The notes under the pieces are model-generated. The model worked only from the letters and a program-made list of their open reading frames with translations, was not told the DNA's origin and ran no database searches. Below are positions 49,287-59,234 of a stretch of DNA of 64,000 bases, in pieces. The position numbers and the translations under genes were made by a program. The DNA comes from Flavobacteriales bacterium TMED123 (GTDB lineage Bacteria > Bacteroidota > Bacteroidia > Flavobacteriales > BACL11): positions 1 to 64,000 of the forward strand of contig NHFY01000034.1 of assembly GCA_002170165.1 (NCBI GenBank), in the 5' to 3' direction. How positions within the stretch are numbered: position 1 is the first letter of the stretch; every line of letters starts with the position of its first letter.

Positions 49287-49877
49287 ATGAAGAAAACTTT
49301 TTTATCAGCACTATTGAGTTTATTAATGTTATTTGTATTTGCAAATACTCCTCATATTGATAGGTTAAGAGTAGATGATCAAAAATCTACAGTAAAATGG
49401 ATAGGGTCAAAAATTGCAGAATCACATGAAGGCCTTATAAGTATTCAAAATGGTGTATTGTTGATAAATCATGGAACATTAGTTGGGGGAGATATTACAA
49501 TTGACATGAGTTCTATCCAAACAACGGATATGTCTGATAAATACAACAAGAAGCTAGATTCGCATTTAAAGAATGAAGATTTTTTTGATGTTGAAAAGCA
49601 TCCTATTTCTACTATAAAAATAACTAAAGCAACAAAAACAGAAGCAAATAATTATGAAATTGTGGCAGATTTAACGATTAAAGGAATTACTCATTCTATA
49701 ATTTTTGATGCAGAAGTTAATATTAGAAAATCTGTATTTTTTGCCAAAGCTAAAATCAAGATAGACAGAACAAAGTGGGACATAAAATATAAATCTGGCA
49801 ACTTCTTTAAAGATCTTGGTGACAAAGTTATTCTTGATGAAATAGAGTTTGAAATTAACCTTTTGTCTGCAAGCTAA
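49287..49877 (+). CDS. YceI-family periplasmic protein
   Basis: Exported protein of 196 residues. A signal peptide (about 1-21) is followed by the YceI lipocalin-like fold: S-T-V-K-W-I-G-S-K near 35, G-D-I-T-I-D-M-S-S-I near 71, H-L-K-N-E-D-F-F-D near 93, H-P-I-S-T-I-K near 105, and L-T-I-K-G-I-T near 129. YceI proteins bind polyisoprenoid-type lipids; the role in Bacteroidota is unclear. The 3' end overlaps the convergent ATP-grasp gene by 23 bases. Confidence 0.93.
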   Translation: MKKTFLSALLSLLMLFVFANTPHIDRLRVDDQKSTVKWIGSKIAESHEGLISIQNGVLLINHGTLVGGDITIDMSSIQTTDMSDKYNKKLDSHLKNEDFFDVEKHPISTIKITKATKTEANNYEIVADLTIKGITHSIIFDAEVNIRKSVFFAKAKIKIDRTKWDIKYKSGNFFKDLGDKVILDEIEFEINLLSAS

Positions 49878-50760
49878 GATTAAAAATTTCATCAGCTAAA
49901 AGTTCTGCACTTTTAGGATTATTTCTAAACCAAAGTTCAGGTTCTATTAGTTCTAATTCGCTTAATGAGGGTTTGTTGTTGTTATCATAAACAATATCAA
50001 CTCTTGCGTAAATAGGTTTAAAAGGGCATTTTGCTAAACATTTTTTTGCAAATGCTATTTCTTCTGAAGTAGCCTGATATTCTTCAACTGTTCCGCCATG
50101 ATCATCTTGCACTCTAAAGTCTCCTTCTTTGGCCATTTTTTTTACAGCATGAGTGTAGTTCCCTCCAATCATTATCAAAGAAATTTCTCCCATTTCAGTG
50201 ATGTTGTTAAGGTATTGCTGAAACAGCATGCATTCTTGCTGGATTAATTGCTGAAAAATAGCTTTATACTGAGTAAAATTCTTAGAGATGATTTTGTAGG
50301 TATGTCTTGCAGCTCCAGATACAGCTGGTTTTATTACCGCTTTTTCCCACTTGGTTTTATTGAACAACTCAGCAAGCGTTATCTTATCTTCTTTTTCAAT
50401 AAATAGAGTAGGTGCTATGTTGATGCCACTCTCCGATAAATCCTTTAGATAATGTTTGTCAATATTCCACTTAATTATTGGTGCTGAATTGATAAAAGTA
50501 GTTCTGTTTTTTGTACTTTCTATCCAATCAAAAAATTCCTTAAATCTTTCAAAATAGTCCCAAGTGGTGCGGAAAATAGCGTATTTTGTTTTTGTCCAAT
50601 CAAACGCTGAATCTGACCAATCTTTTTTACATACGCTTAAGTCTTTTTTTTCTAGAGCATTCAACAATAGCTCATCTTCATCTAGTACTTGTTTAGTATA
50701 CCAATCTTTTTTTTTAGGATTTACATAGCGGTGGTCGGTAAGGATAACAATATCGTACAC
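49855..50760 (-). CDS. ATP-grasp domain protein (RimK/glutathione synthetase-like)
   Basis: A 301-residue ATP-grasp ligase of unknown substrate. Visible parts: an N-terminal pre-ATP-grasp region (T-T-W-D-Y-F-E-R near 66), the ATP-binding lysine segment A-V-I-K-P-A-V-S-G-A near 141, Q-E-C-M-L-F-Q-Q-Y near 176, E-I-S-L-I-M-I-G-G near 192, and the metal-binding E-L-E-L-I-E-P-E near 271. The start is GTG; a stop lies just upstream and no ATG is near. Likely carboxylate-amine ligation, but the product cannot be assigned. Confidence 0.83.
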   Translation of the reverse strand: MYDIVILTDHRYVNPKKKDWYTKQVLDEDELLLNALEKKDLSVCKKDWSDSAFDWTKTKYAIFRTTWDYFERFKEFFDWIESTKNRTTFINSAPIIKWNIDKHYLKDLSESGINIAPTLFIEKEDKITLAELFNKTKWEKAVIKPAVSGAARHTYKIISKNFTQYKAIFQQLIQQECMLFQQYLNNITEMGEISLIMIGGNYTHAVKKMAKEGDFRVQDDHGGTVEEYQATSEEIAFAKKCLAKCPFKPIYARVDIVYDNNNKPSLSELELIEPELWFRNNPKSAELLADEIFNLSLQTKG

Positions 50761-50792
50761 TGCTTAACTTATTTTTTGTGTTAAAAGAAAGT

Positions 50793-50800
50793 CAAATTTA
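50793..50800 (-). promoter_or_regulatory. -7 box upstream of the ATP-grasp gene
   Basis: TAAATTTG on the minus strand matches TAnnTTTG, 33 bp before the GTG start. No good -33 element. Confidence 0.35.
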
Positions 50801-50843
50801 GTTTTTTTTTTATATTAGAACCCTATAAAAAGAACAAAGTAAA

Positions 50844-51404
50844 ATGAGTGCATTAAAGAGCATTTTCAAATGGATGCTTATTACTGTTTTGGCTTTTTGC
50901 ACTTTTAATCTATTTATTTCTCCAGACTATCAAGTAGAAAGAAGTATTGAAATCAATGTGCCATCTTATGTAGTGTATGGAGAGGTAACCGATTTACAAT
51001 CTTGGCCAAATTGGGTAATTTGGTGGAAGCAAGATTCCACTCTAGTAACAGAGTATACAGGAGAAAGGTATGGTAAGAACTCGAAAATGAGTTGGAATGG
51101 CAAAGAGGCAGGAAAAGGCACGCTAGAGATTATTGGAGTTAGTTTTGCTGATTCTATCAATACGGAATTGATATTTGATGATATGAACCCTGCTTATGGG
51201 TACTGGCGATTTACAGAAATAAATGGTATTACAAAAGTAGTTTGGGGGATGAAAGGGGAGATGCCATTTTTTATACGCTTTATGACTTTATTTTTTGATG
51301 CTATGGCAGGAAGAGATTTTGAAGAAGGATTAAAAGGATTGAAAGAAAGATGTGAATCATTCCCTAGTAAATCTTTATCAGTTGAAGTAGTAGATATCCA
51401 ATAA
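50844..51404 (+). CDS. SRPBCC/polyketide-cyclase-like membrane-anchored protein
   Basis: A 186-residue protein with one N-terminal hydrophobic helix (about 9-25) and an SRPBCC ligand-binding fold: V-E-R-S-I-E-I-N-V-P near 31, L-Q-S-W-P-N-W-V-I-W near 51, and a C-terminal helix F-E-E-G-L-K-G-L-K near 155. Such START-like domains bind hydrophobic ligands; the ligand is unknown. Confidence 0.82.
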   Translation: MSALKSIFKWMLITVLAFCTFNLFISPDYQVERSIEINVPSYVVYGEVTDLQSWPNWVIWWKQDSTLVTEYTGERYGKNSKMSWNGKEAGKGTLEIIGVSFADSINTELIFDDMNPAYGYWRFTEINGITKVVWGMKGEMPFFIRFMTLFFDAMAGRDFEEGLKGLKERCESFPSKSLSVEVVDIQ

Positions 51405-54911: not shown

Positions 54912-57614
54912 ATGAATAAAATTATACAAATATCTATAGGTGTTTGCTTATTTTTCTCTTGTACAAATCAGAAAGAAAAACAAATTGCTTTTGCATCCGA
55001 CAATCCAGCTGAAAGGATAGTATGGGAAAGGATTCGTTTGGCAGATCCTAATACTGGAGAACTGCCAAGAAATATTAGGCAAAAAGAAATGATTTTTGCA
55101 AAAACATTACCCAAGTCTAAAGTATTAAATAAATCTAATTGGGTGCATAGAGGTCCTTACAATGTTGGCGGCAGAACTAGAGCCTTAGCTATGGATGTAT
55201 TGGATGAGAACACCTTATTAGCAGGAGGTGCATCAGGAGGAATGTATCGTTCTACCGATGGAGGTCAAAGTTGGATAATGACTACAGACGCTAATCAATT
55301 GCATAATGTCAGTTGTGTTAGTCAAGATATAAGAGTAGGTAAGGAGCATATCTGGTATTTTGGTAGTGGCGAGCTTAGAGGAAGTTCAGCTAGTGGAGGA
55401 GGAGCGTATTATCAAGGAAATGGCATCTATAAATCAGAAGATGGCGGTTTGAGTTGGGACTCTATATCAGTAACGGCTACCAACACCCCACACAATTTTG
55501 ATTCTGATTTTGATTTTATTTGGAATATAGAAACCGATCCTTCCAATGACAGTTTAGATGTAGTATATGCAGCTACTTACGGTTCTATTTATAGAAGTGA
55601 AGATGGTGGAGATTCTTGGAGTTTACAACTTGGAGGAGGAAGTGCTTACTATAGTAATATTGAGATTAACTCTAATGGTGTAGTGTATGCAGCACTTAGT
55701 TCAGATGGAATTGATAAGGGGATTTGGCGTTCAACAGATGGAAATAATTGGATAAATATTACAGACTCTCTTTTTCCACCAGTTTATGGAAGAATTGCAA
55801 TAGGCATAAATCCGGCTAATGAGAATGAGGTGTATTTTTTGGCAGCAGAAACAGATGGCTATGGACAGCATACAGATGTGTTCTTTGGTGGAGAAGCTTG
55901 GACTTCGCTTTGGAAATATGAAGCAAATAATGGTAATTGGACAGATTTATCTGCAAATATTCCATCAAATCAAACAACAACTTTTGATAATTTTAATTCT
56001 CAAGGTGGCTATGATCTGTTAGTGAAAGTACATCCGTCTTCTCCAAATACAGTTTATATAGGAGGAACAAATTTGTGGCGTTCAACAGATGGCTTTACAA
56101 CTCCGAATAATACGATGATTATAGGTGGATATTTTGTGGGTTCATATGAAGGAGATGGTAATTGGGGGATATACAAAAATCATCATCCTGATCAGCACGA
56201 TTTACTCTTTCTTCCTTCCAATGACAGCATTATACTAAGTGCAACTGATGGTGGTGTGTATAAATCGCACAATACTTTTCAAGATACTGTTGTTTGGACT
56301 TCACTAAATAATGGTTATTACACTACACAGCTCTATGGCGTCACGGTTAGTCGTAATGCAAACTCTGATGTTATGCATGGAGGTTTTCAAGATAATGGTA
56401 ATTTTATCACTTTCTCACCTAATCCAACTTCTCATTGGAATATGCCTTTTAATGGTGATGGTTGTTTTGCAGGTATAGCAGATAATGAAGAAGATTTTTA
56501 TCTGACAATACAGAGGGGGGTGATGTATAAGATGAAGCTAGATACTAATGCTGAACGTTTGGCCTTTAATAGAATGGATCCCATTTCTGCTGATAGCACA
56601 AATTATATGTTTATCAACCCAATGGTGATGGATGATAATGCCGATATTATTTATTGGGCAGAAGGACATAAGTTTTGGAGAAACAATGATTTAGCAAATA
56701 TTCAGTATAACAATTCGCATGCAAAATCAGATTTGGGATGGCATCTTTTTTCGGACTCTTTACCTAGTAGTTCAATGAAAATTTCTGTAATTGAAACAAG
56801 TGTAAATCCTGCCAACGTGGTGTATTTGGGTACGCAAAACAAATACATTTATCGAATTGATAATGCTGATGTAGGCGATCCCCCGCTAAATATGATTACC
56901 AATATTCCAACAGGAACGAACTCTTACACTTCTGATATAGCAATAAATCCTAATGATGCTAATGAGATTATGGTGGTATATTCTAATTATTCATTGTATT
57001 CCCTTTTCCATAGCACTGATGCAGGGGCAAGTTGGATAAAGGTGGCTGGAAATTTGGAACAAAACCCAAGCGGAAGCGGAAATGGACCATCTTGTAGGAC
57101 TGCTGAGATTATTCCATTAGGCAATGATACTTTGTATTTGGTGGGTACTTCAGTTGGACTATTTGGAACAGCTAATTTGAATGGGGCGAATACTATTTGG
57201 AAACAAATTGCTTCTCAAACTATTGGATCAGTTGTGGTAGAGTTTTTAACTTATAGGAAAAATGATGGATTATTAGTGGTAGGTACACACGGAAAGGGAA
57301 TTTTCCAAACCAATATTTCATCAGTTGGAGATTTGCTGTCAATTGATGAAAACTCAGCTTTTACATCTAAAGTGCAATTATTTCCTAACCCAACAAGAGA
57401 TAAAATGAATTTGGAATTTACTGCTCAAAAAACAACTATGGCAGAATGCACAGTTTACAATGAATTGGGGAAAAAAGTAAAAAGCCAAAAAGAAAAAGTA
57501 AGTGCTGGGGAAAACCAATTGAGCATTGATTTGGAAAAATTAAAAGCAGGGATTTATTTTGTAAGTATTGAATTGGAGGGTGAAATAATTACAAGGCAGA
57601 TTATAAAAAACTAA
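54912..57614 (+). CDS. T9SS cargo beta-propeller (BNR/Asp-box) protein, putative lipoprotein
   Basis: A 900-residue exported protein. The N-terminal signal ends in a lipobox-like F-F-S-C (about 14-17). The body carries sialidase-type Asp-box repeats, S-T-D-G-G-Q-S-W near 114, S-E-D-G-G-L-S-W near 175, S-E-D-G-G-D-S-W near 231, S-T-D-G-N-N-W near 274 and S-T-D-A-G-A-S-W near 700, implying one or two beta-propellers. The C-terminus (about 820-900) is a T9SS type A domain: L-F-P-N-P-T, Y-N-E-L-G-K-K-V, G-I-Y-F-V-S-I. No catalytic residues are recognisable. First gene of a three-gene unit, 1 bp before the esterase gene. Confidence 0.85.
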   Translation: MNKIIQISIGVCLFFSCTNQKEKQIAFASDNPAERIVWERIRLADPNTGELPRNIRQKEMIFAKTLPKSKVLNKSNWVHRGPYNVGGRTRALAMDVLDENTLLAGGASGGMYRSTDGGQSWIMTTDANQLHNVSCVSQDIRVGKEHIWYFGSGELRGSSASGGGAYYQGNGIYKSEDGGLSWDSISVTATNTPHNFDSDFDFIWNIETDPSNDSLDVVYAATYGSIYRSEDGGDSWSLQLGGGSAYYSNIEINSNGVVYAALSSDGIDKGIWRSTDGNNWINITDSLFPPVYGRIAIGINPANENEVYFLAAETDGYGQHTDVFFGGEAWTSLWKYEANNGNWTDLSANIPSNQTTTFDNFNSQGGYDLLVKVHPSSPNTVYIGGTNLWRSTDGFTTPNNTMIIGGYFVGSYEGDGNWGIYKNHHPDQHDLLFLPSNDSIILSATDGGVYKSHNTFQDTVVWTSLNNGYYTTQLYGVTVSRNANSDVMHGGFQDNGNFITFSPNPTSHWNMPFNGDGCFAGIADNEEDFYLTIQRGVMYKMKLDTNAERLAFNRMDPISADSTNYMFINPMVMDDNADIIYWAEGHKFWRNNDLANIQYNNSHAKSDLGWHLFSDSLPSSSMKISVIETSVNPANVVYLGTQNKYIYRIDNADVGDPPLNMITNIPTGTNSYTSDIAINPNDANEIMVVYSNYSLYSLFHSTDAGASWIKVAGNLEQNPSGSGNGPSCRTAEIIPLGNDTLYLVGTSVGLFGTANLNGANTIWKQIASQTIGSVVVEFLTYRKNDGLLVVGTHGKGIFQTNISSVGDLLSIDENSAFTSKVQLFPNPTRDKMNLEFTAQKTTMAECTVYNELGKKVKSQKEKVSAGENQLSIDLEKLKAGIYFVSIELEGEIITRQIIKN

Positions 57615-57615
57615 A

Positions 57616-58617
57616 ATGAGATTTCTTTTACTATTAATCTTTCCATGCTTTTCATTTGCTCAGCAAACTATAAATGGAAGCATAATCCATGATAATGTTC
57701 AAAGGGATTATATCCTTTATGTTCCTGCATCATATACTGCTAATAATTCAGTGCCTTTGCTTTTTAACTTACATGGAAGAACTAGTACTGCGTCCGCCGC
57801 AATGTGGGCAAGCGACTTTAGAGATATTGCAGATACAGCAAATTTTATTATTATACACCCTCAAGGATTATTAGATAATACAGGGGTTACACATTGGAAT
57901 TATGGACAAACTACAGTAGATGATATAGGTTTTTTAAACCTATTATATACTCATCTGCTTGCTAATTATAATATTGATATAAATAGAGTATACAGTGCTG
58001 GCATGTCTAATGGAGGGGCTATGAGTTATCGTTTAGCATGTGACATGAGTGATAAAATTGCAGCTATAGCATCTGTAACTGGAACAATGACCACATATCA
58101 ACATGTTTCATGTAGCCCTGTACACCCAACACCTGTAATGGAGATTCATGGAACAAATGACCTTATAGTTCCTTTTAGTTCAATAATTCCGGGATTAGAT
58201 TATTGGAGAAATTATAATAACTGTAATGTTTTAGCAGATACAACAATAATTCCAGATATTGTTTTAACTGATTTTAGTACAGTAGAACATATAGTATATA
58301 ATAATGGAAATAATGGTGCTACTACTGAATTATTTAGGGTTATTAATGGAGAGCATTCATGGCCTGGAAGTGTCTTTCCTTCAGGTGTAACAAATTATGA
58401 TATTAATGCCTCTGTTGAGATTTGGCGTTTCTTTTCAAAATTCGATATCAATGGCTTGATTTCCTCTGCCACTTCAATTGCTGAGATTGATAACCTAAAT
58501 AAGAAACTTATTAAAATTGTGGATGTAATGGGAAGGGCAACAAATAAACAACAGAATCGTATGCTTTTCTATATCTTTAATGACGGAACAGCAGAAAAGA
58601 AAATAATTATTGAATAA
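57616..58617 (+). CDS. Secreted PHB-depolymerase/feruloyl-esterase-like hydrolase
   Basis: Alpha/beta hydrolase of 333 residues with a signal peptide (about 1-15, F-A-Q). Family signs: L-H-G-R-T near 53 (oxyanion region), nucleophile S131 in A-G-M-S-N-G-G-A-M, D182 in H-G-T-N-D, and H247 in G-E-H-S-W-P-G, a full LpqC/PHB depolymerase-type triad. The final 37 residues match the end of the next gene's product and resemble a short T9SS-type sorting tail. Substrate unknown (polyhydroxyalkanoate or hydroxycinnamoyl ester are family options). It overlaps the next gene by one base. Confidence 0.85.
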   Translation: MRFLLLLIFPCFSFAQQTINGSIIHDNVQRDYILYVPASYTANNSVPLLFNLHGRTSTASAAMWASDFRDIADTANFIIIHPQGLLDNTGVTHWNYGQTTVDDIGFLNLLYTHLLANYNIDINRVYSAGMSNGGAMSYRLACDMSDKIAAIASVTGTMTTYQHVSCSPVHPTPVMEIHGTNDLIVPFSSIIPGLDYWRNYNNCNVLADTTIIPDIVLTDFSTVEHIVYNNGNNGATTELFRVINGEHSWPGSVFPSGVTNYDINASVEIWRFFSKFDINGLISSATSIAEIDNLNKKLIKIVDVMGRATNKQQNRMLFYIFNDGTAEKKIIIE

Positions 58618-59234
58618 TGAAGAAAATACTTTTTGTTTTAATATTTCCGCTTTATAGCTTTGCACAATTTACTTATGTGCCTGATGATAATTTTGAACAG
58701 GCTTTAATAAACCTAGGGGTAGATTCTTTAATTGATGATTATGTGGGAACGGCAGGAATTGATACAATTACCTATTTGTATATTTCTAATAGAGGTATAT
58801 CAGACCTGACAGGGATTGAAGATTTTATTTCCCTAAGAGGATTATTTTGTTATTCTAATCAACTTACATTCTTAGATTTAAGCAATAACAGTCAGCTCTT
58901 TGAAGTCTCTTGTGGAAGCAATTTACTTACCTCACTAGATATTAGAAATGGAAATACTCAGGGTTTATGGTATTTCATATCTACAAATAACCCATCTCTT
59001 ACTTGTATAGATGTAGATGATGTGTTATGGGCAGATTATAATTGGGCAACTGATACATGGACTATCTTTAGCACCAATTGTAGTGTCTCAAATCTAGAAG
59101 AAAACAACTCAACTGTCAATCGATTATTAAAGGTGGTTGATATTTATGGAAGAAGCATTAGGCCAAAACCTAATATTCCGCTTTTTTATATTTTTGAAGA
59201 TGGAAGGGTAGAGAAGAAAATCGTTATTAAATAA
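58617..59234 (+). CDS. Secreted leucine-rich-repeat protein with short T9SS-like tail
   Basis: A 205-residue protein with a signal peptide (about 1-16, F-A-Q). The opening Y-V-P-D-D-N-F-E-Q-A-L-I-N-L-G is common to Bacteroidota leucine-rich secreted proteins. A few LRR-like turns follow (S-D-L-T-G-I-E-D-F, L-T-F-L-D-L-S-N-N, L-T-S-L-D-I-R-N). The C-terminal 37 residues share 19 identities with the esterase end. Probably surface binding or adhesion; function not known. Convergent with the sugar-kinase gene, 2 bp apart. Confidence 0.82.
   Translation: MKKILFVLIFPLYSFAQFTYVPDDNFEQALINLGVDSLIDDYVGTAGIDTITYLYISNRGISDLTGIEDFISLRGLFCYSNQLTFLDLSNNSQLFEVSCGSNLLTSLDIRNGNTQGLWYFISTNNPSLTCIDVDDVLWADYNWATDTWTIFSTNCSVSNLEENNSTVNRLLKVVDIYGRSIRPKPNIPLFYIFEDGRVEKKIVIK

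Follow-up and report, generated by a model that had tools for sequence, protein, structure and literature searches.

Signals at the C-terminus that direct proteins to the type IX secretion system (T9SS) are known in several forms. The type A C-terminal domain (CTD; TIGR04183/PF18962) spans about 75 residues and folds as a seven-stranded β-sandwich, and the type B (TIGR04131) and type C/ChiA (NF033708) CTDs are likewise T9SS signals at the C-terminus (PMC10202324). The closest described counterparts of the element reported here are the short CTDs of Prevotella intermedia, which measure about 40–51 residues, form a single three-stranded sheet, prefer a basic residue in motif B, carry a further one in motif E and have a motif-D Gly described as absolutely conserved (PMC11969387). 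Their cleavage consensus has Ile at +2, and C-terminal glycosylation follows PorU cleavage; long and short CTDs together had, according to the same paper, been reported from P. intermedia alone (PMC11969387). In Flavobacterium johnsoniae an almost invariant Lys near the C-terminus of the CTD touches PorV in translocon structures, the authors placing its primary role elsewhere in transport as a suggestion (PMC10994853), and the signal of HBP35 has been localised to its last 22 residues (PMC11285876). Here we describe a C-terminal tail of about 40 residues, common to a secreted esterase and a leucine-rich repeat (LRR) protein encoded next to each other in Flavobacteriales bacterium TMED123, within a window (the whole stretch of DNA analysed) of 64,000 nucleotides. 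This tail is probably a miniaturised T9SS sorting signal, or short CTD.

The two genes follow a third that encodes a canonical T9SS cargo protein, and the features on which the comparison depends are these:

54912–57614, + strand: open reading frame (ORF) 1 (P0001), Asp-box (BNR/sortilin-like) propeller, T9SS type A cargo, 900 amino acids
57378–57611, + strand: canonical T9SS type A CTD of the propeller (TIGR04183/PF18962)
57616–58617, + strand: ORF2 (P0002), secreted α/β-hydrolase esterase, polyhydroxyalkanoate (PHA) depolymerase / acetyl xylan-feruloyl esterase-like, 333 amino acids, Ser131-Asp182-His247
58495–58614, + strand: short tail of the esterase, residues 294–333, with motif-B-like VDVMGR, motif-D-like LFYIF and motif-E-like EKKIIIE; Lys328
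58617–59234, + strand: ORF3 (P0003), secreted internalin-like LRR protein, 205 amino acids
59115–59231, + strand: short tail of the LRR protein, residues 167–205; Lys200

The CTD of ORF1 scored above the cut-off with both curated models (TIGR04183, residues 823–900, 47 bits against 23; PF18962, residues 823–898, 55.1 bits against 27). ORF2 and ORF3 matched none of the CTD models searched to E 10, and TIGR04131 and NF033708 were likewise absent among their matches; the endings of these two proteins are 51% identical across 37 aligned residues. A preliminary description of the locus had proposed three genes, one junction with a 1-bp spacer and the other overlapping by 1 bp, whose first product has a complete type A domain while the second and third have a short ending in common. 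The coordinates agree (base 57615 alone separates ORF1 from ORF2, and base 58617 is shared by ORF2 and ORF3), as do the domain assignments. The common segment is real but extends well beyond this operon, and the earlier label of T9SS cargo applies directly to ORF1 and, by way of the short tail, inferentially to ORF2 and ORF3.

Searched with the tail of the LRR protein, the genome of origin (2.1 Mb, 74% complete) gave 10 places at E ≤ 10. Nine look genuine and the weak match L017 looks spurious; after frame reading, the genuine places comprise eight proteins and one contig-edge fragment. The proteins include P0002, P0003, a second esterase (L013, G000:C72; 45% identical to P0002) and, by sequence reading, an M43-like protease, another metalloprotease and a thioredoxin-like protein. 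Seven of the eight have a signal-peptide-like start by eye, with L012 lacking one in its open frame. Among 100 relatives, the tail was found in 66 (E ≤ 0.01), including 52/52 genomes of the same family with 3–51 copies each, the maximum of 51 matches coming from a two-contig, 99%-complete genome. Cargo in these relatives includes esterases, LRR proteins, a sulfotransferase-like protein and, by sequence reading, proteases. The names of the metagenome-assembled genome (MAG) records suggest that the family is marine.

A survey of the order found the tail in 106/395 genomes: 52 of the same family and 12, 10, 12 and 20 of four others (f7, f9, f15 and f8, respectively). The best 18 candidates per genome were scored, making copy numbers lower bounds; f8 genomes have one or two copies each. 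No more than two copies were scored in 20 of the 106 positive genomes in all, and in three of those the match is weak (E 6e-6 to 9e-5). In a phylum-wide sample, mostly of high quality (370/395 with completeness ≥ 90% and contamination ≤ 5%), the tail was present in 2/395 genomes, namely the genome of origin and another in which one copy is convincing. This copy (L237, G157) lies in a 5.2-Mb genome of the same class outside the order, a possible case of transfer or of older origin. From a named collection, 270 tail places were confirmed and 80 kept, representing 78 distinct loci, mostly from MAGs of uncultured Flavobacteriales. Three of these (L090, L094 and L119) come from MAGs recorded under the names Chryseobacterium gleum and Polaribacter, whose labels are possibly wrong or whose contigs may be mis-binned. 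The tail is thus a C-terminal module of about 40 residues that is family-wide rather than operon-specific. Chance likeness of two tails is ruled out by the copies in the genome of origin, the spread in relatives and the phylum sample. No description of the tail was found among the articles listed from the open PubMed Central (PMC) literature, including by its literal sequence strings, a search that covered that library only, so that a description elsewhere is possible; by title, P. intermedia alone appeared there for a T9SS "short CTD", and nothing bearing on the tail was found in PMC12618676 or in passages of PMC11928666.

The tail occupies the position of a sorting signal. In 78/78 named loci it is C-terminal, ending exactly at the stop in 74 and within 1–3 residues of it in four. 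Counts of signals, exclusion, exchange, residues and junctions were taken from a set of ORFs whose loci were partly chosen for tails, CTDs or propellers, so that proportions are not genome-wide, and signal-peptide and lipobox calls were simple heuristics rather than SignalP. Under a loose rule, a signal-peptide-like start was present on 165 of 184 distinct tail proteins (13 without, 6 cut off); the same rule was passed by 242 of the 604 remaining ORFs in those loci that reach 200 amino acids. For the two tail proteins of the window, the signal peptides are as follows, and the site of the esterase agrees with the Bacteroidetes Q-rule for signal peptide cleavage (PMC5837995):

57616–57660, + strand: Sec signal peptide of the esterase, expected cleavage A15|Q16, read by eye
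58617–58664, + strand: Sec signal peptide of the LRR protein, expected cleavage A16|Q17, read by eye

Tail and canonical CTD are exchanged on homologous cargo. Across 1249 ORFs, the models for the tail (200 ORFs) and for the type A CTD (95 ORFs) never matched the same ORF, and 46 of the 200 tail cores had a CTD-bearing homologue at E < 1e-10. Stricter rules left 14 distinct tail proteins, from four core families, whose alignment with a CTD-bearing homologue comes within 40 residues of the junction in each of the two proteins. The closest match is between L024 (from a relative) and L141 (from the genome of origin), 61% identical over 441 amino acids, with the tail on one and the canonical CTD on the other. 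Single-linkage clustering of the cores merged them into one large group and was not used. The two signals also have a junction motif in common, [GSATN]I.[END], seen at 61 of 123 junctions of the tail and at 30 of 42 of the type A CTD; as background, it occurred in 383 of 2480 windows drawn at random from the cores, and shuffling left it in 22% of tail windows and 24% of CTD windows. In 45 of the 61 tails with the motif, it sits 18–19 residues before the motif-B Gly.

Measured from the start of the model to the end of the protein, the tail has a median length of 44 residues (26–49). The motif-B Gly is present in 183/184 tails and is followed directly by a basic residue in 168/184. LxY occurs at motif D in 152/184 (11 not parsed), and near the C-terminus the Lys/Arg of motif E is found in 174/182, with a second basic residue in 171/181. 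Motifs D and E together form a predicted hairpin with the consensus LFYIYDDGTVEKKIIIE. AlphaFold2 modelling from 74 tails gave three strands, at positions 13–17, 31–36 and 41–45 (mean pLDDT 77, pTM 0.53); in the model of the full-length esterase the tail is poorly determined, in blocks of about 61–75 pLDDT. Alignment of the tail model with VIA-align placed the T9SS CTDs 7pq4, 8gl6, 8glj and 8gl8 at ranks 4, 6, 9 and 10 (Z 2.5–3.3). If the alignment to 8gl8 is ungapped near its end, RemZ Lys1110 would fall on Lys43 of the tail, which is Lys328 of P0002.

In common with the type A CTD, the tail is found at the C-terminus of predicted-export Bacteroidota proteins and takes the same position when cargo is homologous, with a motif-B Gly, a C-terminal Lys and a similar upstream junction motif. 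It differs in measuring about 40 rather than about 75 residues, in having three modelled strands rather than a seven-stranded β-sandwich, in the absence of GxY and in being matched weakly at best by the curated models. An ordinary CTD that simply falls below threshold is ruled out by the shorter length of the tail, its three modelled strands and the absence of GxY. The type B and type C/ChiA CTDs share the C-terminal position, but their models matched neither P0002 and P0003 nor any of the 74 tails. The short CTDs of P. intermedia agree with the tail in length, in three strands (modelled for the tail), in basic residues near motif B and in motif E, in being used beside long CTDs and in cargo that includes LRR proteins and proteases; in contrast, the tail has LxY in place of GxY/GxN and the consensus LFYIYDDGTVEKKIIIE, and is found in a different order.

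The T9SS itself was sought in the same genomes. PorV (C10:34975-36108) and PorU are encoded adjacent to each other in the genome of origin, and SprA was found in 3/3 genomes of the same genus and in 85/100 relatives. The PorV model matched 95/100 relatives at E ≤ 0.001, 87 of them above the cut-off, and at this threshold it matched 66/66 tail-bearing relatives, a few weakly. Canonical CTDs occupy 34 places in the genome of origin, 33 above the cut-off, and 94/100 relatives have them (the best 51 candidates per genome were scored in the CTD survey of relatives, making copy numbers lower bounds).

Taken as a miniaturised T9SS signal, the tail would act as follows. Tail-bearing proteins would be exported by Sec via their signal peptides, after which the SprA/PorV translocon would recognise the tail of about 40 residues instead of a type A CTD of about 75. 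The tail would probably be removed by PorU and the protein then released or anchored. It would have retained motif B (D-x-L-G-R), the D/E hairpin (LFYIYDDGTVEKKIIIE) and the C-terminal Lys, with the rest of the seven-stranded sandwich dropped. In one family of Flavobacteriales each genome would use it beside canonical CTDs, in numbers from several copies to dozens, and it is present in four further families. That the tail proteins depend on the T9SS, bind PorV and are cleaved by PorU is what we infer. Such a tail would be a variant of the known T9SS CTD signals; the module itself, its C-terminal position, the exchange with canonical CTDs, the spread and the poor recognition by models are observed. 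If it is a T9SS signal, the curated models miss a substantial share of T9SS cargo in these Flavobacteriales. It would also be a natural minimal signal, in which motif B and the D/E hairpin are enough without the motif-D Gly, and would bear on cargo recognition by SprA/PorV. The tail might be usable as a compact export tag.

Several observations weigh against a short CTD. The motif-D Gly, reported as invariant in P. intermedia, was found in 0/182 aligned tails. TIGR04183 matched 8/74 tails with a best E of 0.027 and PF18962 1/74 at E 0.039, values that chance matches to other families also reach. Profile comparison of the tail with the type A CTD by hhalign aligned only 10 columns, at motif B, with a probability of 48% (23% in global mode), and the profile of 74 tails had no match at E ≤ 10 among PDB sequences. 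In structure, the best PDB match of the tail model with Foldseek had E 0.78 and no CTD was among the top 50, and the Z-scores from VIA-align are low, with unrelated folds scoring equal or higher. The whole tail of the esterase orthologues is 0.67 conserved against 0.70 for the core, that is, not higher. SprA was not found in the 74%-complete assembly of origin. T9SS and tail co-occurrence is confounded by phylogeny, and proves little on its own because many T9SS-bearing families are without the tail.

The weak matches to curated T9SS models, the missing motif-D Gly, the profile likeness limited to 10 columns and the non-significant fold match speak for a C-terminal signal that serves a different route to the outer membrane or surface, or for an anchoring or retention tag that the T9SS translocon does not read. 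Such a signal would have to account for the replacement of a canonical CTD by the tail on homologous cargo, the two never appearing on one ORF in the set, and for the junction motif, motif-B Gly and C-terminal Lys common to both. The modelled topology is moreover that reported for short CTDs, and a PorV-model match accompanies the tail in every tail-bearing relative; we regard another route as quite improbable. The many copies per genome on unrelated proteins would also suit a coding repeat that is neutral or selfish, spreads by recombination and has no sorting function. Against this, the tail lies in frame at the C-terminus at all 78 named loci (non-coding copies were not searched for), and conservation across diverged copies is residue-specific; for P0002 and 20 orthologues it is 0.78 in the motif D/E stretch, 0.57 in the linker and 0.48 in mid-tail. 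We give a selfish repeat hardly any credence, and a short CTD read by the T9SS is the preferred explanation. Going beyond this, the tail might define a separate class of T9SS signal, whereby a lineage-specific PorV-like shuttle reads LFYIYDDGTVEKKIIIE and one translocon sorts long-CTD and short-tail cargo to different fates, at the surface or released; this extension is speculative, and we think it unlikely.

The preliminary description had further proposed that the three genes deliver a joint surface assembly, and its gene order was therefore compared with that in relatives. The propeller was matched (E ≤ 1e-100) in 49/100 relatives including the genome of origin, 41 of these within the family of 52, its orthologues occurring one per genome across most of this family. 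From the 48 other genomes with a match, 41 loci were read (G001, G018, G046, G059, G063, G074 and G093 were not included), and the first same-strand downstream gene was classified by eye. A P0003-like LRR gene with a tail lies directly 3′ of the propeller in 17 of the 41, across seven genera and with gaps of −4 to 117 bp. Another tail-bearing gene is in this position in five, an esterase in one of them (G003); in 18 the gene is tail-less or on the opposite strand, and one locus, at a contig edge, was unclassified. The propeller and LRR genes are a recurrent cargo pair, since they adjoin in these 17 loci, and synteny is therefore not absent elsewhere.

The full order of propeller, esterase and LRR gene occurred at 0/41 other propeller loci, and among the loci read, an esterase between the other two is peculiar to the genome of origin. 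At 20 other esterase loci the neighbours are M14 and C1 peptidases and other genes. A conserved three-gene assembly as a general unit is ruled out by the propeller and esterase loci together. That the three proteins are nevertheless one co-delivered surface assembly here is in keeping with the abutting and overlapping genes, an export-type N-terminus on each product and the recurrence of the tail-bearing LRR-like gene, but the missing trio and the different company of the esterase elsewhere make it very improbable, and this part of the earlier proposal is not upheld.

The propeller begins differently from the two tail proteins:

54912–54962, + strand: lipoprotein-type signal of the propeller, lipobox-like LFFSC with Cys17, by a simple pattern

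All three proteins have an export-type N-terminus, as had been proposed, with the qualification that the start of ORF1 is lipobox-like and not an ordinary signal peptide. By the same simple pattern, 28 of 42 propeller orthologues have a lipobox-like start (13 do not, at least two of which are probably start-truncated, and one is cut off), whereas only 1 of 53 other ORFs with a type A CTD has one (41 without, 11 cut off). The propeller thus combines a lipobox-like signal with a T9SS type A CTD, and a lipoprotein as T9SS cargo would be unusual.

For the esterase, tail-bearing orthologues were found in 20 other genomes of the family at 53–69% identity, in varied surroundings. Ser131, Asp182 and His247 are conserved in 21/21 rows of the alignment of P0002 with these orthologues, confirming the intact triad noted earlier. 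Likeness to polyhydroxybutyrate (PHB) depolymerases holds in part: the nearest solved structures are an Aspergillus acetyl xylan/feruloyl esterase and a PHB-hydrolysing esterase. With the model for extracellular PHA depolymerase type 1 (NF050058), the score was 148.3 bits, just below the cut-off of 150. At two esterase loci from other genera (L187:6251-9052 and L192:1840-4749), an M14 carboxypeptidase gene lies a few bases from the esterase gene with a C1-like peptidase gene near, and by eye these neighbours look like the genes at 49855–51404 of the window.

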